A stretch of DNA of 64,000 nucleotides from Batillaria attramentaria. Lineage: Eukaryota; Mollusca; Gastropoda; Batillariidae. The stretch lies in assembly GCA_018292915.2 (NCBI GenBank), contig JACVVK020000195.1, forward strand, positions 976,001 to 1,040,000, in the 5' to 3' direction. The notes under the pieces were generated by a model. That model made no database searches and was not told where the DNA came from. It saw nothing but the letters and a program-made list of their open reading frames with translations. Positions 3,192-59,279 of this stretch are shown here, piece by piece. The position numbers were made by a program, and so were the translations under genes. Each line of letters starts with the position of its first letter. Positions within the stretch are counted from its first letter, which is position 1.

Positions 3192-4214
3192 TTACAGTCG
3201 CTCCAGCAGGTTATACACGGCCCTGACAGGCGCAGTAACATACCTGACAGCTTGACCCAAATACCCCGGCTCTGTTCTAACTACTTCGTTTCTCACTCTC
3301 CGCAACTCTTCTTCATGTCGACACCTTTGCCTCCTAAGCTCTTCTTCTTTTTCTTTTTGGCATCGTCGGCTCCATTCCCTCCTATCCGCCTCTTCGCGCT
3401 CACGGCGCCTTTCCCTCTTACGCTCTTTTTGTTCCTCTTCAAGTTCTTTGCGCCTTTGTCGTTCTTCCAGAACCTGTCGCTTCAAACACTCTTGACGGAC
3501 CGTCTCTTCCAGTCTTCTCTTTTCTTCTTCCTGTTTCTGCTTTTCTAGTTCCTGTTTCAGTTTCTGTAACTCTTCCTGCTTCCTCTCTTCTGCCTGTTGC
3601 ATCTCGCGAATTCGCTCTGTCTCAACCCGCTCCAGCTCTTCCGCCTGTTTCTTCTTCTCCTCTTCGGCGTCTTCCGCTTGCTTCTTCAGCTGTTGAACGT
3701 ACCCGTGGCGTTCTAATTCTCTCTTATCGCACATTTCCAGTCGTCTGGCAACCTCCTTCTCCAAACTTTCCCCGACCATCGTGTATCTCGGACAAACGTA
3801 CGGCTTGTTCTCATTTTGAGCGCTCATCCGCTGGACCATTCTGAGCAAGGCCTCAGTTTGAGGCTGAAGATCTCCAGCGCGGTTATTGAAAATGACGGTC
3901 CTGTTGCCGCACTCACGAAGGATGGCCGCCAGCGAATCTGGAGCTTCTGCCAGAAACTCTTCGAACGTAACCTCGTCTTGTTCAAGATCGTCCCCGCACG
4001 TGAAAAGAACGATGGTGTATTTGGCGATGGTCTCGTCAAACAAGTCCTTGATGCGTGTGTAAACTTTGGCGTCCTCCTCAGTGAAGCGACCGACCCTCAC
4101 AACGTAGAGTATGGCGTGGGGTCCAGGGTGCAGGCCGACCACAGCCTGCACGATTTTCGCGCTTATTTCCTCGCGAGGTCTGTTTGTGTCACACAGACCG
4201 GGCGAGTCCATGAT
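3192..4214 (-). CDS. Gene 1 last exon: G3-G5 and coiled coil
   Basis: Acceptor TTTTCAG|ATC starts the exon. It encodes IMDSPGLCD (G3), the AIG1 conserved box, FTCGDD (G4 region), VIFNN (G5 region), a linker KPYVCPRYT, and about 150 residues of Glu/Lys/Arg/Gln heptad-like coiled coil. The end, [13 protein letters not shown], can form an amphipathic helix, then a stop. The codon at 3,996-3,998 reads TGC (Cys) against GGC (Gly) at the same place in unit 2. Confidence 0.9.
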   Translation of the reverse strand: MMDSPGLCDTNRPREEISAKIVQAVVGLHPGPHAILYVVRVGRFTEEDAKVYTRIKDLFDETIAKYTIVLFTCGDDLEQDEVTFEEFLAEAPDSLAAILRECGNRTVIFNNRAGDLQPQTEALLRMVQRMSAQNENKPYVCPRYTMVGESLEKEVARRLEMCDKRELERHGYVQQLKKQAEDAEEEKKKQAEELERVETERIREMQQAEERKQEELQKLKQELEKQKQEEEKRRLEETVRQECLKRQVLEERQRRKELEEEQKERKRERRREREEADRREWSRRCQKEKEEELRRQRCRHEEELRRVRNEVVRTEPGYLGQAVRYVTAPVRAVYNLLERL

Positions 4215-7200
4215 CTGAAAAGACGGACAAACAAGGCAGTGGTCAGACCAGAAGGACCAACAGGAAACATTTTAATGAGATCCACCATCCCCCTAAAACA
4301 AAACAAAACAAAACAAAACAAAACAAAACAAAACAAAACACCCCCCCCCCCCAAACAAAAAAACCAAACACCAAACCAAAATGAACAAGAACAACAGCAA
4401 CAACAAAAAACACCCTTGCCGCAACAAGCACGCATTTTTCGTGGTAGACCACAAAGCTGCCAAAAAGATGCATGCATGCTGCGGGTCTGTTTATGCACGG
4501 GGAACAACTCATGCAGGCAATAATCTCTAATCAGGCTGAAAATGTACTGTGCTGGTGAATGCGACAGTTTTCACCGCTTCTGTGCACACTGTGAAATAAC
4601 ACGGGGACCTCAAAGTTGTTCGCAACTGTCCACTTTCCTTGTCACCGAGTATTTTTTTTTCCTTCTTAGGTATCACTTAGCTCGGCTCGGTCTCGGTTAG
4701 CCCGATTTGGGCGTCGTCACATGGGCTAAGAGAAGCGCGGACCCGGTACAGGGATGCCGGAATTACAACTTGGGACTCATAGCTTAGCTTCCGGACATGC
4801 GACTCGGGACTCATAGCTTAGGCTACGTGACACAGATGCAAATCTGGGGGAAAACGCTACAGTCGAATCCGCTAATAAGAACCTCGTAGGGACATGCATT
4901 ACTTATACATGCGTGTTCTTATAAGCGAGGTCCCTTGTAAGCGAGAAATCGGTTATAAGGTCGTATATGGAAGTGTGTGTTCTTATAACCGAAAAAAGGG
5001 GTGGGTGGGTGTTTGGGGGTTTAACGTTTATAACCGAAAAAAGAAGAAATTAGCAAGAAGATGGCAGGTCAATGATATTTCTCTTATTTCTCTTCCCTCT
5101 CTTTTTTTCTAGCTAGACACACGTTATTATAAAACTTACTTGCAGAATATTGGTATTATTTCCCCGAAAGGGGACAAAAAGCAATAAAAATACAAATAAA
5201 AATAAAAATTATTTAATGATAATTTTGGACAAAGACAAAAAAAATCTGGTTTATGATTATATAAGAAATTATAAAGTCAGAGTTGTATTTCTTGAGAGAG
5301 AGAGAGTATTCTTCCAAACTGTCTTTTGGACTTTAATGAGACAAACATGAAAGTAATACGCAAATTAAAGAGACGTGTATTATTTTCAAGCGTCAGAGAA
5401 AGCTTTAGAGAGGGCAGGGAGCAGGGGAAGCAGTGGAGAATAGGAAAGAAAAGTCGGTATGTCAGAGTACTTCCGTTTATCTACACAAAGATGTAGTTAA
5501 ACGTGCACTCAAACCTGTTTATCTACACAAAACTTTAAATAACGTGCTGTCAAATTCTGACAATATGACTAAACAAATATTTCATTTTTGTTTTTGTTGT
5601 TTTGTACTATACTATCAATCATAAAGGAAACACAAATATTTTATATTTGCGCTGATAGTTCCATAAAAGACCGTCAGCCAAAACAAAACATCCGAATAAA
5701 AAAGTTTTTCATGCAACAATTTTCATGCAAAAAAATGAAAAAAAAAAACAAAACAAAAAAACCTGAGGACGAACACGTTCTTTTGCTAAAGAAAAATTAA
5801 TAGTGTTTTGTCGGCTGTTTCTATTCACTCAGATTCAGCAGGAAACCAAATATTATTCCTATTAATAAATCGTCAATCTTGGAAGCTTTTGAAAGTGAAT
5901 TGACATAAAAAAGAAAAAAAGAAAAAAAGAAAAAAAAAAACATGGGCTCATGCTAGAGCACCATGCTTCCCATCTAATACCAGTCTTGAGTGGTTTACTT
6001 ACAGCACTTCACTGTACACAAACTACCCGTTCAAAATGACCGCAAAAGTTTCCGCGCAAATACACCCTGTCCTGGCTGACCTCAACTCCAGGAATTGTGA
6101 ACAGTGGCATGTGCGGTATCCATTCTCTAGTGGTGGCACTCACAGCTGTATACACAACAATGGTAGTTTGAAGCAACGTTGCTGCTGCATAGATTTCTGC
6201 GTCTGAGCGAGAGAGCTTTTCTCTTCCATTCTGCCATGTTTCTTGCAAGTGATGTACACAAACCGAAAACGAAACAGTTCCCTTTTCCCAGAGGGGGAGG
6301 TTATTATGGAGGGAACTCGTACAAGTCTATTTTTAGACGGTTAGGGTTAGGGTTAGGGTTTGGTTATGGTTTGAACGCGCCGGAATCTCGCGACCTCAGC
6401 TGACGTCCGTCTAAAAATAGACCTGTACGAGTTCCCTCCATAATAGCCTTCACCTTCCCCAAAAAGAAAGCCCACTTCCTGGAAACGATAACTTCCACTT
6501 TCGATTTCTAAACTTGCTTATAAGAACCTGAGTTAGGCCTAGTTACCTTTAGGCGAGCAGAAGTTTTTATATCCGAGGGAAGGACCTGTGGGGAGCAAGC
6601 ACGTGAGGTTCCTATAGGCGAAGGTTCTTATAGCAGAGGTTCTGATATGCGAGTTTTTATAAGTAATCACAAAGAACAACTTTGGCAGGGACGTGTATTG
6701 GGGGGTCCTTATAAGAGAAGTCCTACTAAGCGGCGTCCTGTTAAGCGGATTCGACTGTATATATTCCTCTTACACTTAACGCTGCAGATGACACCCTAGA
6801 AATGCTTTAAAATTCACACACACAAAAAATTCACAAAAATCAGGCAGCCATAGACTCATGTGTAGAGGAAATTTAAACAAATTCCAATATTCCGTTTTTT
6901 GGCAATGTTGGCAGCGACCACATACCCCCTCATTCCACGGTCGTCTGCTGGCTCCTGTGCCAGCTGCGCATGAATACAAATAGTCCACAAGCCAGCCTCA
7001 TTTTTCCCTAATTTTACTATTACCTGGCATGAAACTTGTTTACAAAGCCAACAAAAAGCACCAGATTGCCATTTTTTACTCTGCACACAAATTTTTAAAG
7101 GGGCAAAGATTTTCTACTATATTTAGCCGAGTTCTTACTACATGCCCCGGAAGCTAATACCGTCACGTAACCTGTTAAAGCTTCCGGAAATGCAACTCGG

Positions 7201-9447
7201 GACTCACCTCGATAAGTCGCCCAGTCGTTTCCGTCCGATGCAGTTCGCATTTCGCTGTAGCGGAACGTAAGCTGGTCTTGGTTGTAAAGAATTTGCCTCC
7301 GAGAATTGTGTTTCCTGTCGTGCTTTTCCCGCTTCCAGTCTTTCCGATGAGGAAAAGTCGGAACTGTTCGGGAGAATCCCCTAAAGACAAAACGAAACGA
7401 GGAGAAATAAGTATCACTCAGCAGCAAAACTTGTGTTAGCCAATAACGATTTCAATACCTTGCCTCGTAGACCGGCAGCAGGTACCTCAAAATCGCACAG
7501 GGGTTCATCGGTGAGTCTGACTATAACAACGTTTTGTACTTTTCAGCTACAGATAGTTTTGTTGGAACACACCAATCAAGATAAAGGAGATATACAGATT
7601 ATGTATCCCGCCCTCTTTAGTTGAAATTGATGATATGAAAAGAAATTGTCCAGGTTCAAAACACCAGTTACGAAAAATGTCCGTGTGCATTCACGAAGAT
7701 CCTCAAGCAGTCGAACGACTCAACGGTATGCAAATGAGTGTGGTCTGCTGTAACCCCCCCCCCCCTTTTTTGGGGGGGGGGAGGGGAAGTGGGAGTGGGA
7801 TGCCTGGGAGACAGCAACAACATAAGTACATGATTGTATCACCTGACTCCTTCGTGCTGACACCAGCAGCAGCAGCACCTGCATCACTGAAGGCCTCTGC
7901 ATCATCAGCCTGGGTGTCCAGGGCCGGAGATCTGGGTACAGCTGTATCAGTTTGTTCAGGAACGTCTTCGTCACTCTCGGCTTGGCTGTTGTCTGACGCA
8001 CCAGGCATTTGCGGATCAGTTTGTTTTGGAACCTGTTCCACAGACTGGGCTTGGTCGCTGTCTGACACACCAGACATTTGCGGATCAGTTTGTTTTGGAA
8101 CCTGTTCTTCAGACTTTGCTTGGCCGTCTGTCTGACCAGGCATTTGTAGATCAGTTTGTTTTGAAACTTGTTCTTCAGACTTTGCTTGGCCGTCTGTCTC
8201 ACCAGGCATTTGCGGATCAGTTTGGTTTGAAACTTGTTCTTCAGACTTTGCTTGGCCGTCTGTCTGACCAGGCATTTGTAGATCAGTTTGTTTTGGAACC
8301 TGTTCTTCAGACTTTGCTTGGCCGTCTGTCTCACCAGGCATGTGCGGATCAGTTTGTTTTGAAACTTGTTCTTCAGACTTTGCTTGGCCGTCTGTCTGAC
8401 CAGGCATTGGCGGATCAGTTTGTTTTGAAACTTGTTCTTCAGACTTTGCTTGGCCGTCTGTCTGACCAGGCATTTGCGGATCAGTTTGTTTTGAAACTTG
8501 TTCTTCAGACTTTGCTTGGCCTTCTGTCTCAGTAGGCATTTGCGGATCAGTTTGTTTTGAAACTTGTTCTTCCGACTTTGCTTGGCCGTCTGTCTGACCA
8601 GGCATTTGTAGATCAGTTTGGTTTGTAACTTGTTCTTCAGACTTTGCTTGGCCGTCTGTCTGACCAGGCATTTGTAGATCAGTTTGTTTTGTAACTTGTT
8701 CTTCAGACTTTGCTTGGCCGTCTGTCTCACCAGGCATGTGCGGATCAGTTTGTTTTGAAACTTGTTCTTCAGGCTTTGCTTGGCCGTCTGTCTGACCAGG
8801 CATTTGCGGATCAGTTTGTTTTGGAACCTGTTCTTCAGACTTTGCTTGGCCGTCTGTCTCAGTAGGCATTTGCGGATCAGTTTGTTTTGAAACTTGTTCT
8901 TCAGGCTTTGCTTGGCCGTCTGTCTGACCAGGCATTTGCGGATCAGTTTGTTTCGGAACCTGTTCTTCAGACTTTGCTTTGCCGTTTGTCTCAGTAGGCA
9001 TTTGCGGATCAGTTTGTTTCGGAACCTGTTCTTCAGACTTTCCTTTGCCGTCTGTCTCAGCAGGCATTTGCGGATCACTTTGGTTTGGAAACTGTTCATC
9101 AGACTGGGTTCCGTCTGACGCATATGGTGTAGCAGCAGAGTCGTTGTTCAGTCGTCCTATCGCTGCATTCAGACGCAGGCAGCTGGCCGAGGACAGCAGA
9201 CCCGGCTTCTGAAAGTTCTCCGTCACGTCCTGAACAGAGAGGTGGCGCAGATCATCCAGTGTAGAGAGGCCATGCTCTTCCAGAATGCCGACAGTCTCTG
9301 GCGCAAGACCCTCTTGTAGACTCCACGTCCGGACCTCAGTGACTGACAATGAAACTCACAATGAGACTTGATTCTTCCAAAAGGGTTATATATAGCGTCT
9401 TATTTTCTATCTTGTCCTAGCTACATACTACTGAAAAACTAAGTCAG

Positions 9448-9516
<69 letters not shown>

Positions 9517-11299
9517 AGAAAAGGGGCAGCACAAATATTTGGCCTAAGCCGGGAGTCGAACGACTCAACGGTATGCAAATGAGTGTGGTCTGCTGTAACC
9601 CCCCCCCCCCCCTTTTTTTTTTGGGGGGGGGGGAGGGGAAGTGGGAGTGGGATGCCTGGGAGACAGCAACAACATAAGTACATGATTGTATCACCTGACT
9701 CCTTCGTGCTGACACCAGCAGCAGCAGCACCTGCATCACTGAAGGCCTCTGCATCATCAGCCTGGGTGTCCAGGGCCGGAGATCTGGGTACAGCTGTATC
9801 AGTTTGTTCAGGAACGTCTTCGTCACTCTCGGCTTGGCTGTTGTCTGACGCACCAGGCATTTGCGGATCAGTTTGTTTTGGAACCTGTTCCACAGACTGG
9901 GCTTGGTCGCTGTCTGACACACCAGACATTTGCGGATCAGTTTGTTTTGGAACCTGTTCTTCAGACTTTGCTTGGCCGTCTGTCTGACCAGGCATTTGTA
10001 GATCAGTTTGTTTTGAAACTTGTTCTTCAGACTTTGCTTGGCCGTCTGTCTCACCAGGCATTTGCGGATCAGTTTGTTTTGAAACTTGTTCTTCAGACTT
10101 TGCTTGGCCGTCTGTCTGACCAGGCATTTGTAGATCAGTTTGTTTTGGAACCTGTTCTTCAGACTTTGCTTGGCCGTCTGTCTCACCAGGCATTTGCGGA
10201 TCAGTTTGTTTTGAAACTTGTTCTTCAGACTTTGCTTGGCCGTCTGTCTGACCAGGCATTGGCGGATCAGTTTGTTTTGAAACTTGTTCTTCAGACTTTG
10301 CTTGGCCGTCTGTCTGACCAGGCATTTGCGGATCAGTTTGTTTTGAAACTTGTTCTTCAGACTTTGCTTGGCCTTCTGTCTCAGTAGGCATTTGCGGATC
10401 AGTTTGTTTTGAAACTTGTTCTTCCGACTTTGCTTGGCCGTCTGTCTGACCAGGCATTTGTAGATCAGTTTGGTTTGTAACTTGTTCTTCAGACTTTGCT
10501 TGGCCGTCTGTCTGACCAGGCATTTGTAGATCAGTTTGTTTTGTAACTTGTTCTTCAGACTTTGCTTGGCCGTCTGTCTCACCAGGCATGTGCGGATCAG
10601 TTTGTTTTGAAACTTGTTCTTCAGGCTTTGCTTGGCCGTCTGTCTGACCAGGCATTTGCGGATCAGTTTGTTTTGGAACCTGTTCTTCAGACTTTGCTTG
10701 GCCGTCTGTCTCAGTAGGCATTTGCGGATCAGTTTGTTTTGAAACTTGTTCTTCAGGCTTTGCTTGGCCGTCTGTCTGACCAGGCATTTGCGGATCAGTT
10801 TGTTTCGGAACCTGTTCTTCAGACTTTGCTTTGCCGTTTGTCTCAGTAGGCATTTGCGGATCAGTTTGTTTCGGAACCTGTTCTTCAGACTTTCCTTTGC
10901 CGTCTGTCTCAGCAGGCATTTGCGGATCACTTTGGTTTGGAAACTGTTCATCAGACTGGGTTCCGTCTGACGCATATGGTGTAGCAGCAGAGTCGTTGTT
11001 CAGTCGTCCTATCGCTGCATTCAGACGCAGGCAGCTGGCCGAGGACAGCAGACCCGGCTTCTGAAAGTTCTCCGTCACGTCCTGAACAGAGAGGTGGCGC
11101 AGATCATCCAGTGTAGAGAGGCCATGCTCTTCCAGAATGCCGACAGTCTCTGGCGCAAGACCCTCTTGTAGACTCCACGTCCGGACCTCAGTGACTGACA
11201 ATGAAACTCACAATGAGACTTGATTCTTCCAAAAGGGTTATATATAGCGTCTTATTTTCTATCTTGTCCTAGCTACATACTACTGAAAAACTAAGTCAG

Positions 11300-11370
<71 letters not shown>

Positions 11371-12078
11371 AGAAAAGGGGCAGCACAAATATTTGGCCTA
11401 AGCCGGGATTCGAACTCAGGACCCGATCATTGAGAGCCCAGCGCTCTACCACTCGGCTGTCTCTCTCCCCCCCCCCTACTCCCCCTGTCCCGCGGGAACC
11501 TACCTGGATTTCCGAAATGAATCACACAATGGTTCAAGAGAAAAGGGAGAGAAAGAGAAAAGAAGAACGGTTTCAGGGGGTATCATATATATAGTTTCAG
11601 GGTTTCAGGAAAGAAACGAAACTGAAACTGAAACTGTTCTTATTTTCTCTTTCTCTCCTTATATATAAAAATTAGAAACAAAGGCGTCGCTAAAGCCGAA
11701 AACATGCGCTCAATCAGGTCAATTGGAAAGTAGGGGAAGTAAGTAAAGCTGAGAGCGCTTACAAAATATATATATTCAAACAGCATGACCGTAGATGATC
11801 TGTACACTAGTATGTATGTAGCATAGCATATATTCCTACAGATGAAAAGGCAACAACAACGAACCATTCACAGTAGCGCATATTCTTCTGTCTACTCATT
11901 CACATCTATACAGAACACAACAGTATGAAAAAAAAATAAAGACGCATCCTCTGTTTTGGTGTATTAAACCAGTCTAGCAGAAACACAGAACAGAAAGACA
12001 CAGAAATAAACAAGTGATCCAAGGTATTCTGCCATTGGGGCAAGGACTTCAGCCGGCTCAGGCTGACGGATATTCAGA

Positions 12079-12125
<47 letters not shown>

Positions 12126-12261
12126 GGGATCTTGATCATGGACCAGAAACTGCACAGTATATTGTCGCTCGATGTCATACACTTCAAAATGGTTAACTCA
12201 TGAATCGGATATACACAACAAAGGGCACGCAAGTACAAAACCTTGCCTTACCTTCAGTCAT
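3192..12261 (-). CDS. SAM-like / 22-aa repeat / GIMAP (AIG1) GTPase with coiled coil, gene 1
   Basis: Four coding exons join in frame: 12,261-12,252, 11,194-9,695 and/or 9,342-7,843, 7,380-7,208, and 4,214-3,192. With one SAM exon the product is 901 residues; with both it is 1,401. Domains in order (901 form): SAM-like at about 5-70, about 17 repeats of 22 residues at about 85-460, P-loop GKTGSGKST at 516-524, G3 DSPG at 564-567, the AIG1 conserved box [13 protein letters not shown], a G4-region [14 protein letters not shown] (G5 region), a coiled coil at about 720-875, and a short amphipathic C-terminus. Known of the family: AIG1/GIMAP proteins bind GTP and often assemble on membranes, with roles in lymphocytes and in invertebrate immune responses. 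The N-terminal SAM-like domain and repeat stalk are inferred to mediate multimerisation. The G4 region has Cys634 where the unit 2 and 28 kb paralogues have Gly. Confidence 0.85.
4295..4354. repeat. (AAAAC)n and poly-C tract in intron 3
   Basis: About nine AAAAC units followed by about 14 C, close to the acceptor of the last exon. The matching tract in unit 2 is at about 16,759-16,814 and is one or two units shorter. Confidence 0.9.
4425..4746 (+). mobile_element. Half of a hAT-like foldback element in intron 3
   Basis: Closely matches the right arm of the 613 bp palindromic element at 55,825-56,437, from the CTTGCCGCAACAAGC region through GACCCGGTACAGGG. The left arm and the last few bases are missing. 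The same half copy is in unit 2 at about 16,889-17,210. Confidence 0.8.
4860..6757. mobile_element. Non-autonomous pogo/Tigger-like DNA transposon in intron 3
   Basis: The ends are inverted: CAGTCGAATCCGCT at 4,860 and AGCGGATTCGACTG ending at 6,757. Both are flanked by TA, the Tc1/mariner target duplication. The terminus resembles that of pogo-group elements (CAG...AATCCGCTTA). Several subterminal motifs around TTATAAG and GCGAGGT recur at both ends. No transposase frame is visible. A SINE-tail fragment (about 5,003-5,030) and a hairpin MITE (6,301-6,446) lie inside. Confidence 0.8.
6301..6446. mobile_element. 146 bp hairpin MITE with telomere-like core
   Basis: Two 40 bp arms (6,301-6,340 and 6,407-6,446) are inverted copies with about two mismatches; each contains GGAGGGAACTCGTACA and TCTATTTTTAGACGG. 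The loop holds three TTAGGG units and a variant. Identical copy at 18,792-18,937. Confidence 0.85.
6758..7207. other. Intron 3 segment between pogo-like element and P-loop exon
   Basis: No gene seen. It contains a short sequence (CTTCCGGAAATGCAACTC, about 7,184-7,201) that also occurs near 4,788, outside the transposon, suggesting a small local duplication around the donor site. Confidence 0.5.
7208..7380 (-). CDS. Gene 1 P-loop exon (G1/G2 of the GIMAP GTPase)
   Basis: 173 nt. Acceptor CTTTAG and donor GAG|GTGAGT are clear. It encodes [12 protein letters not shown] followed by the Walker A/G1 motif GKTGSGKST and TGNTILGG, and ends LIE in phase 0. It enters in phase 1 and leaves in phase 0, matching its neighbours. 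Identical in unit 2 (19,699-19,871). Confidence 0.9.
7754..7781. repeat. Poly-C / poly-T / poly-G hairpin just inside intron 2
   Basis: About 12 C, 6 T and 10 G in a row, so the C and G arms can pair around a T loop. It begins about 60 nt past the donor at 7,842. Variants with other loop lengths lie at about 9,599-9,634 and 20,244-20,275. Confidence 0.85.
7843..9342 (-). CDS. Gene 1 SAM/repeat exon, proximal copy
   Basis: Same structure, phases and splice sites as the distal copy, 1,852 bp away. There is no ATG before the SAM-like domain; the frame is closed upstream by TGA at about 9,356, so this exon must be internal. It lies next to the P-loop exon (intron 7,381-7,842). The 66 bp repeat array occupies about 7,985-9,112. 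Confidence 0.82.
7985..9112 (-). repeat. 66 bp minisatellite encoding the 22-aa stalk (gene 1, proximal)
   Basis: About 17 head-to-tail units of 66 bp. A few units are 69 bp and encode 23 residues. The last units toward the donor are degenerate ([14 protein letters not shown]). The unit is a multiple of three and lacks stops in several frames, which makes spurious open frames on both strands. Array copies lie at about 9,837-10,964 and 20,470-22,203. Confidence 0.95.
9449..9513. repeat. (CA)n microsatellite between the two SAM exons
   Basis: About 32 CA units. A second copy at about 11,302-11,368 belongs to the duplicate; the unit 2 counterpart at about 22,539-22,582 is shorter. Confidence 0.95.
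9556..11409. repeat. Tandem duplicate containing the SAM/repeat exon (distal half)
   Basis: Copy of about 7,711-9,555. The junction at about 9,551-9,561 fuses a SINE sequence (CCGGGA) to intron sequence (GTCGAACGACTC). The two parent sites share AGTCGAAC/ATTCGAAC, an eight-base near match, at 7,709-7,716 and 11,408-11,415. Absent from unit 2. Confidence 0.9.
9695..11194 (-). CDS. Gene 1 SAM/repeat exon, distal copy
   Basis: This 1,500 nt exon has acceptor TTTCATTGTCAG and donor TCAG|GTGATA, with phase 1 at both ends. The first 65 residues form a SAM-like helical domain (WSLQEGL, then AIGRLNN at its end). About 17 repeats of 22 residues follow, each like [15 protein letters not shown] plus QTDGQAK, and then an Ala/Asp-rich linker ending KESG. 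It is nearly identical to the proximal copy at 7,843-9,342, differing at a few residues (for example PHMPG to PQMPG). It can splice to the proximal copy, or directly to the P-loop exon, without a frameshift. Confidence 0.78.
11367..11468 (-). mobile_element. tRNA-like SINE, intron 1 of gene 1
   Basis: The minus strand carries an A-box-like TGGTAGAGCG and a B-box-like GAGTTCGAATCCC, then CAAATATTTGTGCTG of the SINE body, cut off by (CA)n. It is the right-hand breakpoint of the exon duplication. Counterpart in unit 2 at about 22,583-22,684. Confidence 0.75.
11611..11637 (+). promoter_or_regulatory. ISRE/IRF-like repeat (GAAACT)n in intron 1 of gene 1
   Basis: A run of GAAAC, then three GAAACT-type hexamers, gives two or more overlapping GAAANNGAAA matches, the core recognised by IRF proteins. 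It sits in intron 1, between the start-codon exon and the distal SAM exon, and is kept in unit 2 at about 22,829-22,853. Function is inferred from the motif only. Confidence 0.4.
12080..12126. repeat. (CAA)n microsatellite
   Basis: About 15 CAA/ACA units in intron 1, with a shorter copy at about 23,302-23,341. It creates poly-Asn or poly-Cys open frames that are not genes. Confidence 0.95.
12252..12261 (-). CDS. Gene 1 coding exon 1 (start codon exon)
   Basis: On the minus strand, CTGTAAAATGACTGAAG is followed by the donor GTAAGGC. It gives Met-Thr-Glu plus one base (phase 1). The next exon has no ATG before its SAM-like domain and begins in the matching phase after TTGTCAG. Joining gives MTEV-TEVRTW, so this is the best start. 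The context has A at -3. The identical arrangement is at 23,467-23,476. Confidence 0.68.
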
Positions 12262-12560
12262 TTTACAGTGTTGTCTTCGCTGTATCCAAAAGCGCACGAC
12301 GTGAAATCAGCAACTTCAATGTTCTCCGGTATACTACGGCACTTCGGTCCTGAAAACTTCGTGTATTAAAGAAATGTAACTGCGTTGATAGGTCTACGCC
12401 TGTGCTGAGGCAGGCCGCAGACGTCTTGTGCTTCCTTGCAGTTGTCTGGCTGTCTGAACTGGCTGTTGCCTCGCCGCACTGCGTCTCCTCTATGCTCACG
12501 AGCTCTGCTCTGAATTTTGTATACTTTAAAGGTCTTCAGTCTCAACAAAAAGCAGCAAAC
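12262..12560 (-). promoter_or_regulatory. Probable 5' UTR and promoter region of gene 1
   Basis: This is sequence upstream of the ATG on the minus strand, ending at the GT-rich tract that begins unit 2. It contains TTTAAAGTATACAAAA at about 12,517-12,532 as a possible TATA-like element. The start site is not resolved. A GTG-initiated open frame here lacks any domain and is taken as untranslated. Confidence 0.35.
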
Positions 12561-12594
12561 AGTGTGTGCGTGCGTGCGTGCGCGAGCCGCGCGC

Positions 12595-12671
<77 letters not shown>

Positions 12672-12771
12672 TGTGTGTGTGTGCGTGCGTGCGTGTGTGT
12701 GTGTGTAACGGTGTATGTGTGTGTGCGCGCGCGCGCGCGCGTGTCAGTCACTGCGACTCCTGCGACTGTGC

Positions 12772-12946
12772 GGGTGGGTGGGTGGGTGTTTGGGGGTTTA
12801 ACGTCCTTTTCCACCATATACGGGTGATATCAAAGACGGGGCAACGATGAAAAAGCCAGCACAAATACTTGGCCCCAGCCGGGATCGAACTCACGACCCG
12901 AGCATTAGAAGTCCAACGCTCTACCATTCGACCACCCCGGCTCCCC
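12772..12946 (-). mobile_element. tRNA-derived SINE, unit 2
   Basis: Same element and orientation as at 78-252, with a few substitutions. It arose by the unit duplication, not by a new insertion. Confidence 0.85.
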
Positions 12947-13310
12947 TGCGACTTCGGAGACCCAGAAAACCAGAGCGCGAGTTTGGGTAATTTCATTGTG
13001 CCTTTGACCAGCGAGCGAGACACATCGCTACAGCGTCTTAAGCGAGTGTTGTGTACTGCAAGAGACTCGAAGACTTTCCACTGCGACATTTCTCGCTCAA
13101 TGTCAAAACGCAGACTGGGCTGTGAAATCAGACTCCCCCTGGCTTTTATGAGGGTTTCAGGGACGCTGAAAACTCTGTAACTGTGACAGAGTTGACTGCG
13201 AATTTTTGCACAGTCGGACAGTTTTGTTTTTAATTCAATTCAATTCAATTCAATTCAATTCAATTCAATATAACTTTATTGTCTGTCGATGGCAGAAAAG
13301 TTTCTTCTGG

Positions 13311-13400
<90 letters not shown>

Positions 13401-13404
13401 CACA

Positions 13405-15655
13405 CCCCTACATTAATTTATCTAGACATATAAATCCATACATATTAAACACAGATCCTAAAGTAATGTGTGATGTCTAAGTCTAATACTATGCTACTAA
13501 ACTAAGAAATCTAAACTAAAAGATGGCAAGGGCATAGCGGACATGACACAGCTGAGCACAGTTATGAAAATCTCAACAAATAAAGTCTATACATACTGGG
13601 GACGGGCAGTAAACAGTCATGAGTTTGTGGGATTTTGTTCAGATTGCAGACCTTTAATTACGCCCCGGCCACTGTTTGCAGATTGTGTATTGATTGTATG
13701 GCAATCCCTTCCACTTTGAACTGTGTTGCTATGGAGCCTTTGATATGCGTGTATAGTTGTCGTCAAAAGCTTGCGTCAGCTCGTGCTACCTTGAATGCCA
13801 CCAGTGTCAGGCACTGTTTGCTGGCTGAGTGTTTTGCGCGGGGCACACAGGTGCAGTTTGCGAAGTGAAACTAGAAATCCCTTGTCTTGCGTAATTGAAT
13901 GTTCTGGCTCTGTTGGGTCTTGTAATTTTTTTCTTAGTTTTTAAGATTTCAAAATTTGATTCGTGTGTGTACATGAATATCGATAAGTATATGGCTTACC
14001 CGTTTTCCTGCACATGGTTAACTGTGTTGTCTTTCAACAAGATTTTCTAAGACATCCTCCGAGGATTATATATATATATATATAACAACTGCTTATACCT
14101 GAGTGCAATACCAACGACACGAATCTGTGTACATGTGTAGGCACTCCAGGTGCGGGGTCGTCGTGGTTGTCGGGAACGCTAAAAATTTAGTTTAGTGAGC
14201 TACTCTGAAATGTTTGTTTAAGATGACTGAAGTGCGAAAGAGTATTGCCACACACGTCTCCACACTCAATCACTCATCAAACTTACACTATGTCTCGAAA
14301 GAAACAACTGACAAAGAGAATGGAACTCAAGAGTGTTCACTTATTCCAATAAAAGTTACATGCGGATTATATGAAGTGTTAGACGTAAGTAAGGCAACAC
14401 AGATTCGGCTCAAAATGATATATTCGCTCCCGATGTGATACATTTGGGCGTGATGATTAATACTTGTCGGGCAACAAACTAGAGACTACTACTAAAAACT
14501 AGACTACAAATACAGAAACATACGGGAAAAGACTAAGCTTTAAAGTACGGGACCGTGACGGGACAGTACAACTCAAAGTAACGGGGAGTGGACTATTCCG
14601 TGAATGATGTAAACCGACAGCGCGGTCACTCTGTGAATGGAATTCCTTACTGTAACTACACGTGACCGTCAGTGCTGAAAGAAACAGACAATACACACTC
14701 GGCCGCGCGTGCGCTGCGTGTTACACAAGAAAGCTGGGAACTATCAGATCTCTTAGAGTACATCGAGTTATTACAGTACAAGTATTTTCCTACTCTACAC
14801 AAACTGTTCTCTAGTTAATAGGGAAAAATGAGACACAATCACCGTTTATCTGAAGACTAATTCCAAGTCCGAATTCAGTGGTTTCAAACACAGTCAGTTC
14901 ACAAAATTAATAATCCGATACAGAATCACACTTTCTTCACAGTGCACATACAGTAGTTCCAAATAGAATATATGTATCTAGTAATAGGTCTAACACTGGT
15001 AACAAAATAACAAAATCGCTACAGAGGCTGAGCCGCTTTCAATGAAGATGAGAACTATAGTATAGCGAGGGAACGAGGAGAGCGATTCACCTCGGAGGGC
15101 TGGAGGGACGACACACGTCTCCGGGGACTCTCAGAGAGCGGCTGATGAAAACGCGGCCGGGAAACTCTCGCTATTATAAGGTTCTGACTTTAGCGTTTAT
15201 ACAAGAAATCACGCGCTCATCACGCGATCACGTGGCCAGCGCACGTGAGAACTGACCCTTCACTGTGGCTAGCTTGACCCAACTCAAAAGTGCAACGGTA
15301 CTAGCAAATGTTACTTTTTAAATTGTTACTGCGACTCTTCGACTGTTCATAATGCAGGCCACGCTGACAGACGGAAGTCTCCGTGCCACTTAAAGGTCTA
15401 CAATCTTAACAAAATGCTACAAACCTTTTTCTTTTTTTACATTGTCGCAGTGGCTACTCTTCTCGTGCGGTGGCAGTCGCGCCTACCGAGCTGCTCATCC
15501 GTGGGTTTCTGTCCGTGTTATCCGGACTTTCCTCCCCAAGCACAATTGCAACATAGGATAGGTATATTGTGGCGCTGCATCGTGTCGACGCGCTTCCCCC
15601 AGGCGAAGCAGCCCGAATTTCCAGATAGAGATGATAAATATTTTTAAAAAAAAAA
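13405..15655. other. Unit 2 spacer and 3' flank of gene 2 copy, no gene seen
   Basis: Matches unit 1 positions 691-3,191 without the 272 bp exon fragment. An (AT)n run near 14,067-14,083 is longer than in unit 1. No recognisable coding domain. Confidence 0.65.
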
Positions 15656-16678
15656 TTACAGTCGCTCCAGCAGGTTATACACGGCCCTGACAGGCGCAGT
15701 AACATACCTGACAGCTTGACCCAAATACCCCGGCTCTGTTCTAACTACTTCGTTTCTCACTCTCCGCAACTCTTCTTCATGTCGACACCTTTGCCTCCTA
15801 AGCTCTTCTTCTTTTTCTTTTTGGCATCGTCGGCTCCATTCCCTCCTATCCGCCTCTTCGCGCTCACGGCGCCTTTCCCTCTTACGCTCTTTTTGTTCCT
15901 CTTCAAGTTCTTTGCGCCTTTGTCGTTCTTCCAGAACCTGTCGCTTCAAACACTCTTGACGGACCGTCTCTTCCAGTCTTCTCTTTTCTTCTTCCTGTTT
16001 CTGCTTTTCTAGTTCCTGTTTCAGTTTCTGTAACTCTTCCTGCTTCCGCTCTTCTACCTGTTGCATCTCGCGAATTCGCTCTGTCTCAACCCGCTCCAGC
16101 TCTTCCGCCTGTTTCTTCTTCTCCTCTTCGGCGTCTTCCGCTTGCTTCTTCAGCTGTTGAACGTACCCGTGGCGTTCTAATTCTCTCTTATCGCACATTT
16201 CCAGTCGTCTGGCAACCTCCTTCTCCAAACTTTCCCCGACCATCGTGTATCTCGGACAAACGTACGGCTTGTTCTCATTTTGAGCGCTCATCCGCTGGAC
16301 CATTCTGAGCAAGGCCTCAGTTTGAGGTTGAAGATCTCCAGCGCGGTTATTGAAAATGACGGTCCTGTTGCCGCACTCACGAAGGATGGCCGCCAGCGAG
16401 TCTGGAGCTTCTGCCAGAAACTCTTCGAACGTTACCTCGTCTTGTTCAAGATCGTCCCCGCCCGTGAAAAGAACGATGGTGTATTTGGCGATGGTCTCGT
16501 CAAACAAGTCCTTGATGCGTGTGTAAACTTTGGCGTCCTCCTTAGTGAAGCGACCGACCCTCACAACGTAGAGTATGGCGTGGGGTCCAGGGTGCAGGCC
16601 GACCACAGCCTGCACGATTTTCGCGCTTATTTCCTCGCGAGGTCTGTTTGTGTCACACAGACCGGGCGAGTCCATGAT
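15656..16678 (-). CDS. Unit 2 last exon: G3-G5 and coiled coil
   Basis: IMDSPGLCD, the AIG1 conserved box, FTGGDD, VIFNN, a coiled coil and an amphipathic C-terminus, 340 codons plus stop. Differs from the unit 1 exon by a handful of residues (T/K, G/C, V/A). Confidence 0.9.
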   Translation of the reverse strand: MMDSPGLCDTNRPREEISAKIVQAVVGLHPGPHAILYVVRVGRFTKEDAKVYTRIKDLFDETIAKYTIVLFTGGDDLEQDEVTFEEFLAEAPDSLAAILRECGNRTVIFNNRAGDLQPQTEALLRMVQRMSAQNENKPYVCPRYTMVGESLEKEVARRLEMCDKRELERHGYVQQLKKQAEDAEEEKKKQAEELERVETERIREMQQVEERKQEELQKLKQELEKQKQEEEKRRLEETVRQECLKRQVLEERQRRKELEEEQKERKRERRREREEADRREWSRRCQKEKEEELRRQRCRHEEELRRVRNEVVRTEPGYLGQAVRYVTAPVRAVYNLLERL

Positions 16679-19600
16679 CTGAAAAGACGGACAAACAAGG
16701 CAGTGGTCAGACCAGAAGGACCAAAAGGAAACATTTTCATGAGATCCACCATCCCCCTAAAACAAAACAAAACAAAACAAAACAAAACAAAACAAAACAC
16801 CCCCCCCCCCCCCAAACAAAAAAAACCAAACACCAAACCAAAATGAACAAGAACAACAGCAACAACAAAAAACACCCTTGCCGCAACAAGCACGCATTTT
16901 TCGTGGTAGACCACAAAGCTGCCAAAAAGATGCATGCATGCTGCGGGTCTGTTTATGCACGGGGAACAACTCATGCAGGCAATAATCTCTAATCAGGCTG
17001 AAAATGTACTGTGCTGGTGAATGCGACAGTTTTCACCGCTTCTGTGCACACTGTGAAATAACACGGGGACCTCAAAGTTGTTCGCAACTGTCCACTTTCC
17101 TTGTCACCGAGTATTTTTTTTTCCTTCTTAGGTATCACTTAGCTCGGCTCGGTCTCGGTTAGCCCGATTTGGGCGTCGTCACATGGGCTAAGAGAAGCGC
17201 GGACCCGGTACAGGGATGCCGGAATTACAACTTGGGACTCATAGCTTAGCTTCCGGACATGCGACTCGGGACTCATAGCTTAGGCTACGTGACACAGATG
17301 CAAATCTGGGGGAAAACGCTACAGTCGAATCCGCTTATAAGAACCTCGTAGGGACATGCATTACTGTGTTCTCATAAGCGAGGTCCCTTGTAAGCGAGAA
17401 ATCGGTTATAAGGTCGTATATGGAAGTGTGTGTTCTTATAACCGAAAAAAGGGGTGGGTGGGTGTTTGGGGGTTTAACGTTTATAACCGAAAAAAGAAGA
17501 AATTAGCAAGAAGATGGCAGGTCAATGATATTTCTCTTATTTCTCTTCCCTCTCTTTTTTTTTCTAGCTAGACACACTTTTATTATAAAACTTACTCGCA
17601 GAATATTGGTATTATTTCCCCGAAAGGGGACAAAAAGTAATAAAAATACAAATAAAAATAAAAATTATTTAATGATAATTTTGGACAAAGACAAAAAAAA
17701 TCTGGTTTATGATTATATAAGAAATTATAAAGTCAGAGTTGTATTTCTTGAGAGAGAGAGAGTATTCTTCCAAACTGTCTTTTGGACTTTAATGAGACAA
17801 ACATGAAAGTAATACGCAAATTAAAGAGACGTGTATTATTTTCAAGCGTCAGAGAAAGCTTTAGAGAGGGCAGGGAGCAGGGGAAGCGGTGGAGAATAGG
17901 ACAGAAAAGTCGGTATGTCAGAGTACTTCCGTTTATCTACACAAAGATGTAGTTAAACGTGCACTCAAACCTGTTTATCTACACAAAACTTTAAATAACG
18001 TGCTGTCAAATTCTGACAATATGACTAAACAAATATTTCATTTTTGTTTTTGTTGTTTTGTACTATACTATCAATCATAAAGGAAACACAAATATTTTAT
18101 ATTTGCGCTGATAGTTCCATAAAAGACCGTCAGCCAAAACAAAACATCCGAAAAAAAAAGTTTTTCATGCAACAATTTTCATGCAAAAAAATGAAAAAAA
18201 AAAAACAAAACAAAAAAACCTGAGGACGAACACGTTCTTTTGCTAAAGAAAAATTAATAGTGTTTTGTCGGCTGTTTCTATTCACTCAGATTCAGCAGGA
18301 AACCAAATATTATTCCTATTAATAAATCGTCAATCTTGGAAGCTTTTGAAAGTGAATTGACATAAAGAAGAAAAAAAGAAAAAAAGAAAAAAAAAAAACA
18401 TGGGCTCATGCTAGAGCACCATGCTTCCCATCTAATACCAGTCTTGAGTGGTTTACTTTACTTGTTGGTGTTCAGATGCAGAATGCCATGAACAGCACTT
18501 CACTGTACACAAACTACCCGTTCAAAATGACCGCAAAAGTTTCCGCGCAAATACACCCTGTCCTGGCTGACCTCAACTCCAGGAATTGTGAACAGTGGCA
18601 TGTGCGGTATCCATTCTCTAGTGGTGGCACTCACAGCTGTATACACAACAATGGTAGTTTGAAGCAACGTTGCTGCTGCATAGATTTCTGCGTCTGAGCG
18701 AGAGAGCTTTTCTCTTCCATTCTGCCATGTTTCTTGCAAGTGATGTACACAAACCGAAAACGAAACAGTTCCCTTTTCCCAGAGGGGGAGGTTATTATGG
18801 AGGGAACTCGTACAAGTCTATTTTTAGACGGTTAGGGTTAGGGTTAGGGTTTGGTTATGGTTTGAACGCGCCGGAATCTCGCGACCTCAGCTGACGTCCG
18901 TCTAAAAATAGACCTGTACGAGTTCCCTCCATAATAGCCTTCACCTTCCCCAAAAAGAAAGCCCACTTCCTGGAAACGATAACTTCCACTTTCGATTTCT
19001 AAACTTGCTTATAAGAACCTGAGTTAGGCCTAGTTACCTTTAGGCGAGCAGAAGTTTTTATATCCAAGGGAAGGCCGTGTGGGGAGCAAGCACGTGAGGT
19101 TCCTATAGGCGAAGGTTCTTATAGCAGAGGTTCTGATATGCGAGTTTTTATAAGTAATCACAAAGAACAACTTTGGCAGGGACGTGTATTGGGGGGTCCT
19201 TATAAGAGAAGTCCTACTAAGCGGCGTCCTGTTAAGCGGATTCGACTGTATATATTCCTCTTACACTTAACGCTGCAGATGACACCCTAGAAATGCTTTA
19301 AAATTCACACACACAAAAAATTCACAAAAATCAGGCAGCCATAGACTCATGTGTAGAGGAAATTTAAACAAATTCCAATATTCCGTTTTTTGGCAATGTT
19401 GGCAGCGACCACATACCCCCTCATTCCACGGTCGTCTGCTGGCTCCTGTGCCAGCTGCGCATGAATACAAATAGTCCACAAGCCAGCCTCATTTTTCCCT
19501 AATTTTACTATTACCTGGCATGAAACTTGTTTACAAAGCCAACAAAAAGCACCAGATTGCCATTTTTTACTCTGCACACAAATTTTTAAAGGGGCAAAGA

Positions 19601-22538
19601 TTTTCTACTATATTTAGCCGAGTTCTTACTACATGCCCCGGAAGCTAATACCGTCACGTAACCTGTTAAAGCTTCCGGAAATGCAACTCGGGACTCACCT
19701 CGATAAGTCGCCCAGTCGTTTCCGTCCGATGCAGTTCGCATTTCGCTGTAGCGGAACGTAAGCTGGTCTTGGTTGTAAAGAATTTGCCTCCGAGAATTGT
19801 GTTTCCTGTCGTGCTTTTCCCGCTTCCAGTCTTTCCGATGAGGAAAAGTCGGAACTGTTCGGGAGAATCCCCTAAAGACAAAACGAAACGAGGAGAAATA
19901 AGTATCACTCAGCAGCAAAACTTGTGTTAGCCAATAACGATTTCAATACCTTGCCTCGTAGACCGGCAGCAGGTACCTCAAAATCGCACAGGGGTTCATC
20001 GGTGAGTCTGACTATAACAACGTTTTGTACTTTTCAGCTACAGATAGTTTTGTTGGAACACACCAATCAAGATAAAGGAGATATACAGATTATGTATCCC
20101 GCCCTCTTTAGTTGAAATTGATGATATGAAAAGAAATTGTCCAGGTTCAAAACACCAGTTACGAAAAATGTCCGTGTGCATTCACGAAGATCCTCAAGCA
20201 GTCGAACGACTCAACGGTATGCACATGAGTGTGGTCTGCTGTAACCCCCCCCCCCCCCTTTTTGGGGGGGGGGGGAGGGGAAGTGGGAGTGGGATGCCTG
20301 GGAGACAGCAACAACATAAGTACATGATTGTATCACCTGACTCCTTCGTGCTGACACCAGCAGCAGCAGCACCTGCATCACTGAAGGCCTCTGCATCATC
20401 AGCCTGGGTGTCCAGGGCCGGAGATATGTGTACAGCTGTATCAGTTTGTTCAAGAACGTCTTTGTCACTCTCGGCTTGGCTGTTGTCTGACGCACCAGGC
20501 ATTTGCGGATCAGTTTGTCTTGGAACCTGTTCCACAGACTGGGCTTGGTCGCTGTCTGACACACCAGACATTTGCGGATCAGTTTGTTTTGGAACCTGTT
20601 CTTCAGACTTTGCTTGGCCGTCTGTCTGACCAGGCATTTGTAGATCAGTTTGTTTTGAAACTTGTTCTTCAGACTTTGCTTGGCCGTCTGTCTCACCAGG
20701 CATTTGCGGATCAGTTTGGTTTGAAACTTGTTCTTCAGACTTTGCTTGGCCGTCTGTCTGACCAGGCATTTGTAGATCAGTTTGTTTTGAAACATGTTTT
20801 TCAGACTTTGCTTGGCCGTCTGTCTGACCAGGCATTTGCGGATCAGTTTGTTTTGAAACTTGTTCTTCCGACTTTGCTTGGCCGTCTGTCTGACCAGGCA
20901 TTGGCGGATCAGTTTGTTTTGAAACTTGTTCTTCAGACTTTGCTTGGCCGTCTGTCTCACCAGGCATTTGCGGATCAGTTTGGTTTGGAACCTGTTCCAC
21001 AGACTGGGCTTGGTCGCTGTCTGACACACCAGACATTTGCGGATCAGTTTGTTTTGGAACCTGTTCTTCAGACTTTGCTTGGCCGTCTGTCTGACCAGGC
21101 ATTTGTAGATCAGTTTGTTTTGAAACTTGTTCTTCAGACTTTGCTTGGCCGTCTGTCTCACCAGGCATTTGCGGATCAGTTTGGTTTGAAACTTGTTCTT
21201 CAGACTTTGCTTGGCCGTCTGTCTGACCAGGCATTTGTAGATCAGTTTGTTTTGAAACTTGTTTTTCAGACTTTGCTTGGCCGTCTGTCTGACCAGGCAT
21301 TTGCGGATCAGTTTGTTTTGAAACTTGTTCTTCAGACTTTGCTTGGCCGTCTGTCTCAGCAGGCATTTGCAGATCAGTTTGGTTTGGAACCTGTTCTTTA
21401 GACTTTGCTTGGCCGTCTGTCTGACCAGGCATTTGCGGATCAGTTTGTTTTGAAACTTGTTTTTCAGACTTTGCTTGGCCGTCTGTCTGACCAGGCATTT
21501 GCGGATCAGTTTGTTTTGAAACTTGTTCTTCAGACTTTGCTTGGCCGTCTGTCTCACCAGGCATTTGCGGATCAGTTTGGTTTGGAACCTGTTCTTCAGA
21601 CTTTGCTTGGCCGTTATTCTGACCAGGCATTTGCGGATCAGTTTGTTTCGGAACCTGTTCTTCAGACTTTGCTTGGCCGTCTGTCTGACCAGGCATTTGC
21701 GGATCAGTTTGTTTTGAAACTTGTTCTTCAGACTTTGCTTGGCCGTCTGTCTCAGTAGGCATTTGCGGATCAGTTTGTTTTGAAACTTGTTCTTCCGACT
21801 TTGCTTGGCCGTCTGTCTGACCAGGCATTTGTAGATCAGTTTGTTTTGTAACTTGTTCTTCAGACTTTGCTTGGCCGTCTGTCTGACCAGGCATTTGCGG
21901 ATCAGTTTGTTTCGGAACCTGTTCTTCAGACTTTGCTTGGCCGTCTGTCTGACCAGGCATTTGTAGATCAGTTTGTTTTGGAACCTGTTCTTCAGACTTT
22001 GCTTGGCCGTCTGTCTCACCAGGCATTTGCGGATCAGTTTGTTTCGGAACCTGTTCTTCAGACTTTGCTTTGCCGTTTGTCTCAGTAGGCATTTGCGGAT
22101 CAGTTTGTTTCGGAACCTGTTCTTCAGACTTTCCTTTGCCGTCTGTCTCAGCAGGCATTTGCGGATCAGTTTGGTTTGGAAACTGTTCATCAGACTGGGT
22201 TCCGTCTGACGCATATGGTGTAGCAGCAGAGTCGTTGTTCAGTCGTCCTATCGCTGCATTCAGACGCAGGCAGCTGGCCGAGGACAGCAGACCCGGCTTC
22301 TGAAAGTTCTCCGTCACGTCCTGAACAGAGAGGTGGCGCAGATCATCCAGTGTGGAGAGGCCATGCTCTTCCAGAATGCCGACAGTCTCTGGCGCAAGAC
22401 CCTCTTGTAGACTCCACGTCCGGACCTCAGTGACTGACAATGAAACTCACAATGAGACTTGATTCTTCCAAAAGGGTTATATATAGCGTCTTATTTTCTA
22501 TCTTGTCCTAGCTACATACTACTGAAAAACTAAGTCAG

Positions 22539-22585
<47 letters not shown>

Positions 22586-23299
22586 AGAAAAGGGGCAGCA
22601 CAAATATTTGGCCTAAGCCGGGATTCGAACTCAGGACCCGATCATTGAGAGCCCAGCGCTCTACCACTCGGCTATCTCTCTCCCCCCCCCCCCTACTCCC
22701 CCTGTCCCGCGGGAACCTACCTGGATTTCCGAAATGAATCACACAATGGTTCAAGAGAAAAGGGAGAGAAAGAGAAAAGAAGAACGGTTTCAGGGGGTAT
22801 CATATATATAGTTTCAGGGTTTCAGGAAAGAAACGAAACTGAAACTGAAACTGTTCTTATTTTCTCTTTCTCTCCTTATATATAAAAATTAGAAACAAAG
22901 GCGTCGCTAAAGCCGAAAACATGCGCTCAATCAGGTCAATTGGAAAGTAGGGGAAGTAAGTAAAGCTGAGAGCGCTTACAATATATATATATATATTCAA
23001 ACAGCATGACCGTAGATGATCTGTACACTAGTATGTATGTAGCATAGCATATATTCCTACAGATGAAAAGGCAACAACAACGAACCATTCACAGTAGCGC
23101 ATATTCTTCTGTCTACTCATTCACATCTATACAGAACACAACAGTATGAAAAAAAAATAAAGACGCATCCTCTGTTTTGGTGTATTAAACCAGTCTAGCA
23201 GAAACACAGAACAGAAAGACACAGAAATAAACAAGTGATCCAAGGTATTCTGCCATTGGGGCAAGGACTTCAGCCGGCTCAGGCTGACGGATATTCAGA

Positions 23300-23340
<41 letters not shown>

Positions 23341-23476
23341 GGGATCTTGATCATGGACCAGAAACTGCACAGTATATTGTCGCTCGATGTCATACACTTC
23401 AAAATGGTTAACTCATGAATCGGATATACACAACAAAGGGCACGCAAGTACAAAACCTTGCCTTACCTTCAGTCAT
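15656..23476 (-). CDS. SAM-like / 22-aa repeat / GIMAP GTPase with coiled coil, unit 2 copy
   Basis: Exons 23,476-23,467, 22,433-20,337, 19,871-19,699 and 16,678-15,656 join in frame for 1,100 residues. Layout as in gene 1, but with a single SAM/repeat exon and about 26 repeats of 22 residues. The extra length comes partly from duplication of a seven-unit block: the atypical SDSDQAQ unit occurs twice, about 465 bp apart. P-loop GKTGSGKST falls at about 715-723 and DSPG at about 763-766. The G4 region reads FTGGDD, the form shared with the other paralogues, so this copy has the more canonical GTPase domain. Other changes from gene 1 include Lys for Glu in GRFTKED. Promoter and intron sequences are almost identical to gene 1, so co-expression is likely. 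Confidence 0.87.
16889..17210 (+). mobile_element. Half hAT-like foldback element, unit 2 intron
   Basis: Duplicate of the half element at 4,425-4,746. Confidence 0.78.
17322..19248. mobile_element. Non-autonomous pogo/Tigger-like transposon, unit 2
   Basis: Same termini (CAGTCGAATCCGC and its inverse) and TA flanks as the unit 1 copy. It retains a 37 bp stretch around 18,460-18,494 that is missing at about 6,001 in unit 1. The hairpin MITE lies at 18,792-18,937. Confidence 0.8.
19699..19871 (-). CDS. Unit 2 P-loop exon
   Basis: Identical in structure to 7,208-7,380: GKTGSGKST, acceptor CTTTAG, donor GTGAGT. Confidence 0.9.
20337..22433 (-). CDS. Unit 2 SAM/repeat exon
   Basis: 2,097 nt, a multiple of three, with phase 1 at both ends. 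Splice signals are the same as in unit 1. SAM-like domain, about 26 stalk repeats, then the acidic/Ala linker. The 66 bp array spans about 20,470-22,203. No frame break across the array. Confidence 0.85.
22829..22853 (+). promoter_or_regulatory. ISRE/IRF-like repeat in intron 1, unit 2
   Basis: Overlapping GAAANNGAAA matches, same position relative to the exons as in unit 1. Confidence 0.4.
23467..23476 (-). CDS. Unit 2 gene, coding exon 1
   Basis: ATG ACT GAA G followed by donor GTAAGG, phase 1, same as 12,252-12,261. It supplies the only plausible ATG for the gene. Confidence 0.68.
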
Positions 23477-33899: not shown

Positions 33900-33958
<59 letters not shown>

Positions 33959-59253: not shown

Positions 59254-59254
59254 G

Positions 59255-59262
59255 TGACGTCA
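59255..59262. promoter_or_regulatory. CRE (TGACGTCA) just upstream of the THAP start codon
   Basis: A perfect eight-base palindrome, 18 bases before the ATG at 59,280. Position is typical of CREB/ATF-driven promoters if transcription starts nearby; if it lies in the 5' UTR it may not act as such. Confidence 0.35.
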
Positions 59263-59279
59263 GTTTGGTGCTTAGCAAT

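Follow-up and report, generated by a model that had tools for sequence, protein, structure and literature searches.

Tandem arrays of AIG/GIMAP genes have been described for Biomphalaria glabrata, where the encoded proteins combine AIG1 with a coiled coil and in some cases carry N-terminal death-fold (DD-CARD) domains, and where AIG genes respond to immune challenge (PMC7053062). In the accessible parts of that study, a coiled coil beside AIG1 is the family criterion, most genes encode one AIG1 domain in one exon, and neither 'sterile alpha' nor 'SAM domain' occurs (PMC7053062). Vertebrate GIMAPs consist of an AIG1 domain, a helical extension and, in some, a membrane-anchoring C-terminus, and GIMAP2 dimerizes on GTP binding, with membrane scaffolds being proposed in the excerpts available (PMC8201404). 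According to an excerpt of a further study, amphioxus AIG1 proteins have varied architectures (PMC12373286). Searches of the open-licence literature brought up no description of a SAM-like head on a GIMAP or AIG protein. Polymerizing SAM proteins such as tankyrase and polyhomeotic have a SAM-type fold, a flexible linker and linker control; a GTPase is absent from them, and polymerization has been shown there, whereas the heads described below are known from sequence and prediction. Vertebrate GIMAPs such as GIMAP2, 5 and 7 have, to our knowledge, neither an N-terminal head nor a tether.

The window analyzed here is a stretch of 64,000 nucleotides from the snail Batillaria attramentaria. Genes 1 and 2 are encoded on the minus strand (12261-3192 and 23476-15656), and the span 3192-23476 runs exactly from the stop codon of gene 1 to the ATG of gene 2. 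Each gene follows a four-exon plan (Table 1), in which a short start exon with a coding part of ten bases (ATGACTGAAG) is followed by an exon for a SAM-like head and 22-residue repeats, a P-loop exon, and an exon for the remainder of AIG1 and a coiled-coil-like tail. All splice sites are GT-AG, the intron phases are 1, 1 and 0, and each frame runs uninterrupted to one stop codon. Thus, the joining of head, repeats, AIG1 and coiled coil in one frame in both copies, which an earlier note on this DNA had claimed, is borne out by gene models with canonical splice sites. The earlier note overlooked the second head exon of gene 1, gene 3 and the AIG1 fragment past gene 1. AIG1 plus a helical extension, which the coiled-coil-like tail may represent, is also the plan of GIMAP2, 5 and 7 as far as the excerpts describe them. 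The window genes resemble the B. glabrata family in their tandem arrangement and in AIG1 with a putative coiled coil; AIG1, mostly reported there in one exon, is here split before G3. The product of gene 2 has 1100 amino acids plus stop. As the head exon of gene 1 is of phase 1-1, either copy gives a product of 901 amino acids and both copies give 1401, making a one-headed or a two-headed gene 1 protein possible. Because the non-coding DNA of genes 1 and 2 is nearly identical, their phase agreement is no independent support and carries no weight; that weight rests with gene 3 and the relatives.

Table 1. Features of the AIG1 genes and gene pieces in the window.
Feature	Position	Strand	Remarks
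Gene 1 exon 1	12252..12261	-	ATG ACT GAA G, donor GTAAGG, phase 1; identical sequence at 23476-23467
Gene 1 head-and-tether exon, distal copy	9695..11194	-	SAM-like head followed by 22-residue repeats; 1500 nt, phase 1-1
Gene 1 head-and-tether exon, proximal copy	7843..9342	-	1500 nt, phase 1-1; tandem duplicate, acceptor and donor intact
Gene 1 P-loop (G1) exon	7208..7380	-	173 nt, phase 0 end; GKTGSGKST
Gene 1 last exon: remainder of AIG1, coiled-coil-like tail, amphipathic segment at the C-terminus, stop codon	3192..4214	-	AIG1 2.2e-39
Gene 2 exon 1	23467..23476	-	
Gene 2 head-and-tether exon	20337..22433	-	2097 nt, 27 repeat units
Gene 2 P-loop exon	19699..19871	-	no difference from gene 1 P-loop exon
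Gene 2 AIG1 remainder, coiled-coil-like tail and C-terminus	15656..16678	-	AIG1 1.6e-39
Gene 3 head exon	30559..30912	-	354 nt, phase 1-1; short linker, repeats absent
Gene 3 P-loop exon	30154..30329	-	176 nt, phase 0 end; AIG1 2e-11
Gene 3 AIG1 remainder and coiled-coil-like tail	27762..28600	-	AIG1 1.1e-33
272-bp AIG1-exon fragment past the 3' end of gene 1	1908..2179	-	94% to 3597-3868
Broken AIG1 gene	54971-53861		

Gene 3 (30912-27762, minus strand) is a diverged gene (identity to gene 1: head 35%, GTPase 55%) and has the exon boundaries and phases of genes 1 and 2 for the head, P-loop and AIG1 exons without the repeats. When gene 1 is compared with gene 3, synonymous differences are far more frequent than nonsynonymous ones over 230 GTPase codons (pS 0.757, pN 0.278) and, with a weaker contrast, more frequent over 68 head codons (pS 0.708, pN 0.463), which supports the head and GTPase exons as protein-coding in the frame used here. 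The coiled-coil frame of gene 3 stops early and is followed by a C-terminal-like stretch in another frame, and a simple pattern scan of 3.1 kb yielded no start exon. The 272-bp fragment past gene 1 has no counterpart at the matching place of the next unit.

The Pfam AIG1 model scores 135.5, 135.9 and 116.9 bits on the last exons of genes 1, 2 and 3, respectively (cut-off 27; the value for gene 1 is that of the last exon alone, with the P-loop exon left out), which confirms the AIG1/GIMAP identification made earlier. The G1 P-loop, G3 DxPG and FNN (G5/IAN) motifs are intact in genes 1 and 2; in gene 3, ELPG replaces DxPG. By eye, the tail is rich in Glu, Lys and Arg in all three genes and looks coiled-coil-like. 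The C-terminal segment of gene 1, with a hydrophobic moment of 0.68 over 18 residues, resembles the C-terminus of the headed relative P0003 and may be membrane-binding. The AIG1 exons of genes 1 and 2 yield a dN/dS of 0.22 from just 4 synonymous and 3 nonsynonymous changes, so that this comparison has no power and an inference of selection from it was dropped.

For the head, AlphaFold2 predicts a bundle of five helices (3-11, 15-23, 29-33, 37-45 and 52-71, the last one long) with a pLDDT of 85; the end-helix has the conserved sequence LLxLAQCLALKxA. The top three Foldseek matches and the top 19 VIA rows are SAM domains; the scores of helix-hairpin-helix domains come close to theirs in both structure and sequence searches, in which the N-terminal domains of NusA, RNA polymerase alpha and RAD51D appear beside the SAM domains. 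None of the window heads reaches the cut-off of a Pfam SAM model; the gene 3 head matches SAM_KSR1 with an E value of 0.0021 and 18.5 bits, below the cut-off of 22.5. The SAM-like head proposed earlier is supported as a predicted five-helix fold whose closest matches include helix-hairpin-helix domains as well as SAM. The three-headed relative P0006 passes SAM_2 as a whole protein (27.4 versus 20.5 bits, with no single stretch at 0.001). Death-fold domains (CARD/DD) have no entry among the structure matches listed for the head and no Pfam match among 19 heads, an absence that does not amount to exclusion, and a scan of four proteins against NCBIfam left the head unmatched. In sequence searches, the top hit to the head profile is a solved piece of CtBP2 isoform 2 (9wbj; E 0.019 and 0.015), which we take to be RIBEYE. 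Because a terpene synthase, which is unrelated, scores 0.017 in the second search, this link was dropped; literature searches brought up nothing on structure 9wbj.

The 22-residue repeats are encoded by 66-bp units, of which TRF counts 16.8, 16.8 and 25.7 copies in the two gene 1 exons and gene 2, respectively, and a count by hand that includes degenerate end units gives 18, 18 and 27, a few units having 23 residues. With a head of about 69 residues subtracted from the 500 and 699 exon codons, the linkers are about 430 (gene 1) and 630 (gene 2) residues long. D, E, K, Q, N, S, T, P and G make up 82% of the gene 1 tether, which has a net charge of -53 over 420 residues. The earlier note had called this repeat a stalk. 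The repeats themselves are confirmed, but a stalk is doubtful: the array is acidic, almost free of aromatic residues and disordered by a charge and hydropathy score, so that a flexible tether is likelier. Treated roughly as a random coil, the tether would span about 17 nm from end to end in gene 1 and about 22 nm in gene 2. Over 35 units (14 from the gene 1 distal exon and 21 from gene 2), the coding frame has a pN/pS of 0.66, as against 0.52 for frame +1 and, with gene 2 units only, 0.22 for one reverse frame; substitutions thus show no preference for the coding frame and are uninformative about selection on the repeats.

Relatives were retrieved by protein searches that reach sequences with shared five-residue words. 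The gene 3 query yielded 195 proteins among 7993 scored candidates (at least 120 listed), and the whole gene 1 protein 34 among 7980, with the best alignments covering at most 46% of it; a head-only query (2 of 142 candidates) was too insensitive. A profile built from 19 heads, 17 from relatives and 2 from the window, was run over 151 retrieved proteins and detected the head in 24, seven of which lie outside the profile-building set. Twenty of these 24 come from five snails, Batillaria, Littorina, Nucella, Babylonia and Pomacea, and in 23 the head and linker are followed by a standard G1, P0034 having a variant G1. The earlier note knew of no described family with this exact layout; in view of these relatives, uniqueness of the layout is rejected. 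The relatives carry head and GTPase in one protein, these being single-ORF proteins from short contigs that speak only indirectly to the splicing of head to P-loop exon in the window genes, and P0006 has three heads in a row. Their heads are 25-48% identical to that of gene 1 (25 other heads aligned), and a SAM model is absent from the precomputed Pfam domains listed for these 24. In databases, the headed relatives are listed as hypothetical, uncharacterized or GTPase IMAP family-like.

The headed caenogastropod AIG1 proteins, such as Batillaria BaRGS_00018068, likewise combine a SAM-like head with a linker and AIG1; those inspected also have a coiled-coil-like tail. For P0003, the model shows a confident head, an 86-residue linker below pLDDT 50, a mostly confident GTPase, and a tail in which a single 155-residue helix (363-517) is followed by a last helix of weak prediction. 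Unlike the long repeat tether of the window genes, the linkers of the relatives are free of such an array and 33-186 residues long (23 measured), many of them being rich in Pro, Ser and Gln by eye. None of the 24 headed proteins has a comparable tandem array, the motifs of the unit are absent from all 151 retrieved proteins, and another short-period repeat occurs in six of the 151, none of them headed. Because of this absence of unit motifs and the limited coverage of gene 1, in searches that reach relatives with shared five-residue words, the 22-residue array may be confined to this lineage. As judged from these comparisons, the repeat tether (about 430 or 630 residues) and the doubling of the head exon are new here, the headed plan being already present in other snails. 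By plain identity, the nearest relative is Babylonia P0009 for gene 1 (56.4%) and Batillaria P0004 for gene 3 (65.5%). A tree of 40 chosen AIG1 domains has headed genes in every larger group; genes 1 and 2 are placed on a long branch of 0.74 changes per column, in a group (support 91/87) that also comprises gene 3 and two sequences from Batillaria. In light of this branch, relaxed or altered function is possible for genes 1 and 2.

By sequence, the window genes are GIMAP-type (AIG1) GTPase genes of a head-bearing caenogastropod subfamily. The likeliest role of their products is that of a GTP-gated membrane scaffold with clustering or recruiting heads, given the amphipathic C-terminus, the GTP-dependent dimerization of GIMAP2 and the membrane scaffolds proposed for vertebrate GIMAPs. 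We infer the following assembly steps: The C-terminus and coiled coil would position the GTPase on an internal membrane and pair it there, the protein would assemble through its G domains upon binding GTP, as in vertebrate GIMAP2, and the head, on a tether with a reach of many nanometres, would cluster adjoining GTPase scaffolds or recruit a partner. We regard such a scaffold GTPase with a clustering or recruiting tethered head as somewhat probable. An immune function is suggested by analogy, since members of the Biomphalaria family respond to immune challenge. Against this reading stand the heads below the Pfam SAM cut-off with near-equal helix-hairpin-helix scores, the repeat units without frame-specific constraint, the long branch of genes 1 and 2, and, in gene 3, the start exon not found in the scanned 3.1 kb and the early end of the frame.

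The head could instead be a small adaptor of SAM-like fold, a helix-hairpin-helix relative or heterotypic binder without self-association, which the tether merely spaces from the GTPase. The NusA, RNA polymerase alpha and RAD51D matches point in this direction, but SAM domains take the best structural ranks and P0006 passes SAM_2 as a whole protein, which leaves the adaptor a tangible though doubtful alternative. Genes 1 and 2 might also be decaying or neutrally drifting copies whose repeat and exon gains are functionless, as would fit their long branch, the unconstrained array, and the broken or partial AIG1 copies nearby. We consider this distinctly improbable: reading frames, splice sites and the G1, G3 and FNN motifs are intact, and the heads of genes 1 and 2 differ by no nonsynonymous and one synonymous change, a comparison of low power. 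Very unlikely, finally, is the production of the head-and-tether exon without the GTPase, as a free regulator, via intron retention past its donor. The frame is indeed open for some 45 to 80 codons beyond the donor in the three exon copies, and this donor, GTGATA, is not a strong consensus; however, acceptor and donor phases fit the P-loop exon, and the relatives join head and GTPase in one protein.

The main risk is an assembly error, by which two alleles or a mis-joined repeat would have been placed in tandem, as the origin of gene 1 versus gene 2 or of the second head exon of gene 1. With gaps left out, the aligned non-coding DNA of genes 1 and 2 differs at 21 of 4458 columns of the main segment and at 25 of 2666 columns of the 5' segment (0.5-0.9%). 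The direct duplication of about 1.85 kb inside gene 1, which holds the complete second head-and-repeat exon, is 99.3% identical over 1862 columns with gaps counted (4 mismatches and 9 gap columns), and its head exon copies have 2 differences in 1500 nt, both nonsynonymous and none synonymous. The differences between genes 1 and 2 and between the head exon copies lie within the ordinary heterozygosity of marine molluscs. Such an error is nevertheless unlikely in our view: there are three tandem copies of the flanking unit (near 1, 12695 and 23853) with an aligned difference of 0.9-1.9%, gaps left out, and the exon duplication is joined at a clean breakpoint, where a short stretch, TTCGA, is common to both parents.

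As judged from its sequence, the tether has grown by 66-bp tandem duplication. In the preferred scaffold reading, the unit number would set its reach and the copy number of the head exon would set head valency, so that both could change quickly between tandem copies. A more speculative and on present evidence unlikely extension is an evolvable immune scaffold, in which adjacent gene copies would acquire tethers of 18 or 27 units through unequal recombination in the repeats, and one-headed and two-headed forms through duplication of the head exon with its symmetric phase; tether reach and head number would thus each change in a single step and tune the threshold of GTP-gated clustering.

As the Pfam listings of the 24 headed proteins hold no SAM model, the head profile would be useful for annotation. 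With the tether and double-head variants, the influence of linker length and head number on the assembly of an immune GTPase could be tested directly. SAM-like heads on GIMAPs would imply that a GTPase family already regarded as scaffold-forming gained a second self-assembly module, which several caenogastropod lineages kept.

The window contains a fourth AIG1 locus, the reading frame of which is disrupted by frame shifts and which by eye resembles the first AIG1 domain of the Batillaria dual-AIG1 proteins P0002 and P0014. In P0034, a database relative that carries the SAM-like head, about 120 residues including a hydrophobic stretch precede the head, and the G1 motif is the variant GITGSGKS.

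Positions of the additional features in the window
Feature	Position	Strand	Remark
Fourth AIG1 locus	54971-53861	-	
Repeat array of gene 2	20494-22196		
Exon-duplication breakpoint of gene 1, at a tRNA-like SINE sequence	9530-9600 and 11380-11450		
Reverse-transcriptase-type element	31581-33988	+	
Second LINE-like element	41383-44684	+	
THAP-domain ORF	59163-59828	+	THAP match 2.4e-15
Inverted repeat, ~540 bases	45159-45699 and 47590-47054		arms 96.9% identical

The reverse-transcriptase-type element lies directly upstream of gene 3, the diverged AIG1 gene without repeats, and is split over two frames; a domain search returned an RVT_1 match for its second piece and no match for the first. For the second LINE-like element, the search yielded a zf-RVT match and an endonuclease match slightly below its cut-off. 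The SINE sequence is located at the exon-duplication breakpoint of gene 1 and includes a B-box-like stretch.

Within the array of gene 2, one unit, read over ten residues, was found by eye to be present twice at a spacing of 155 residues, corresponding to seven units. This recurrence suggests that the array grew by blocks of units.
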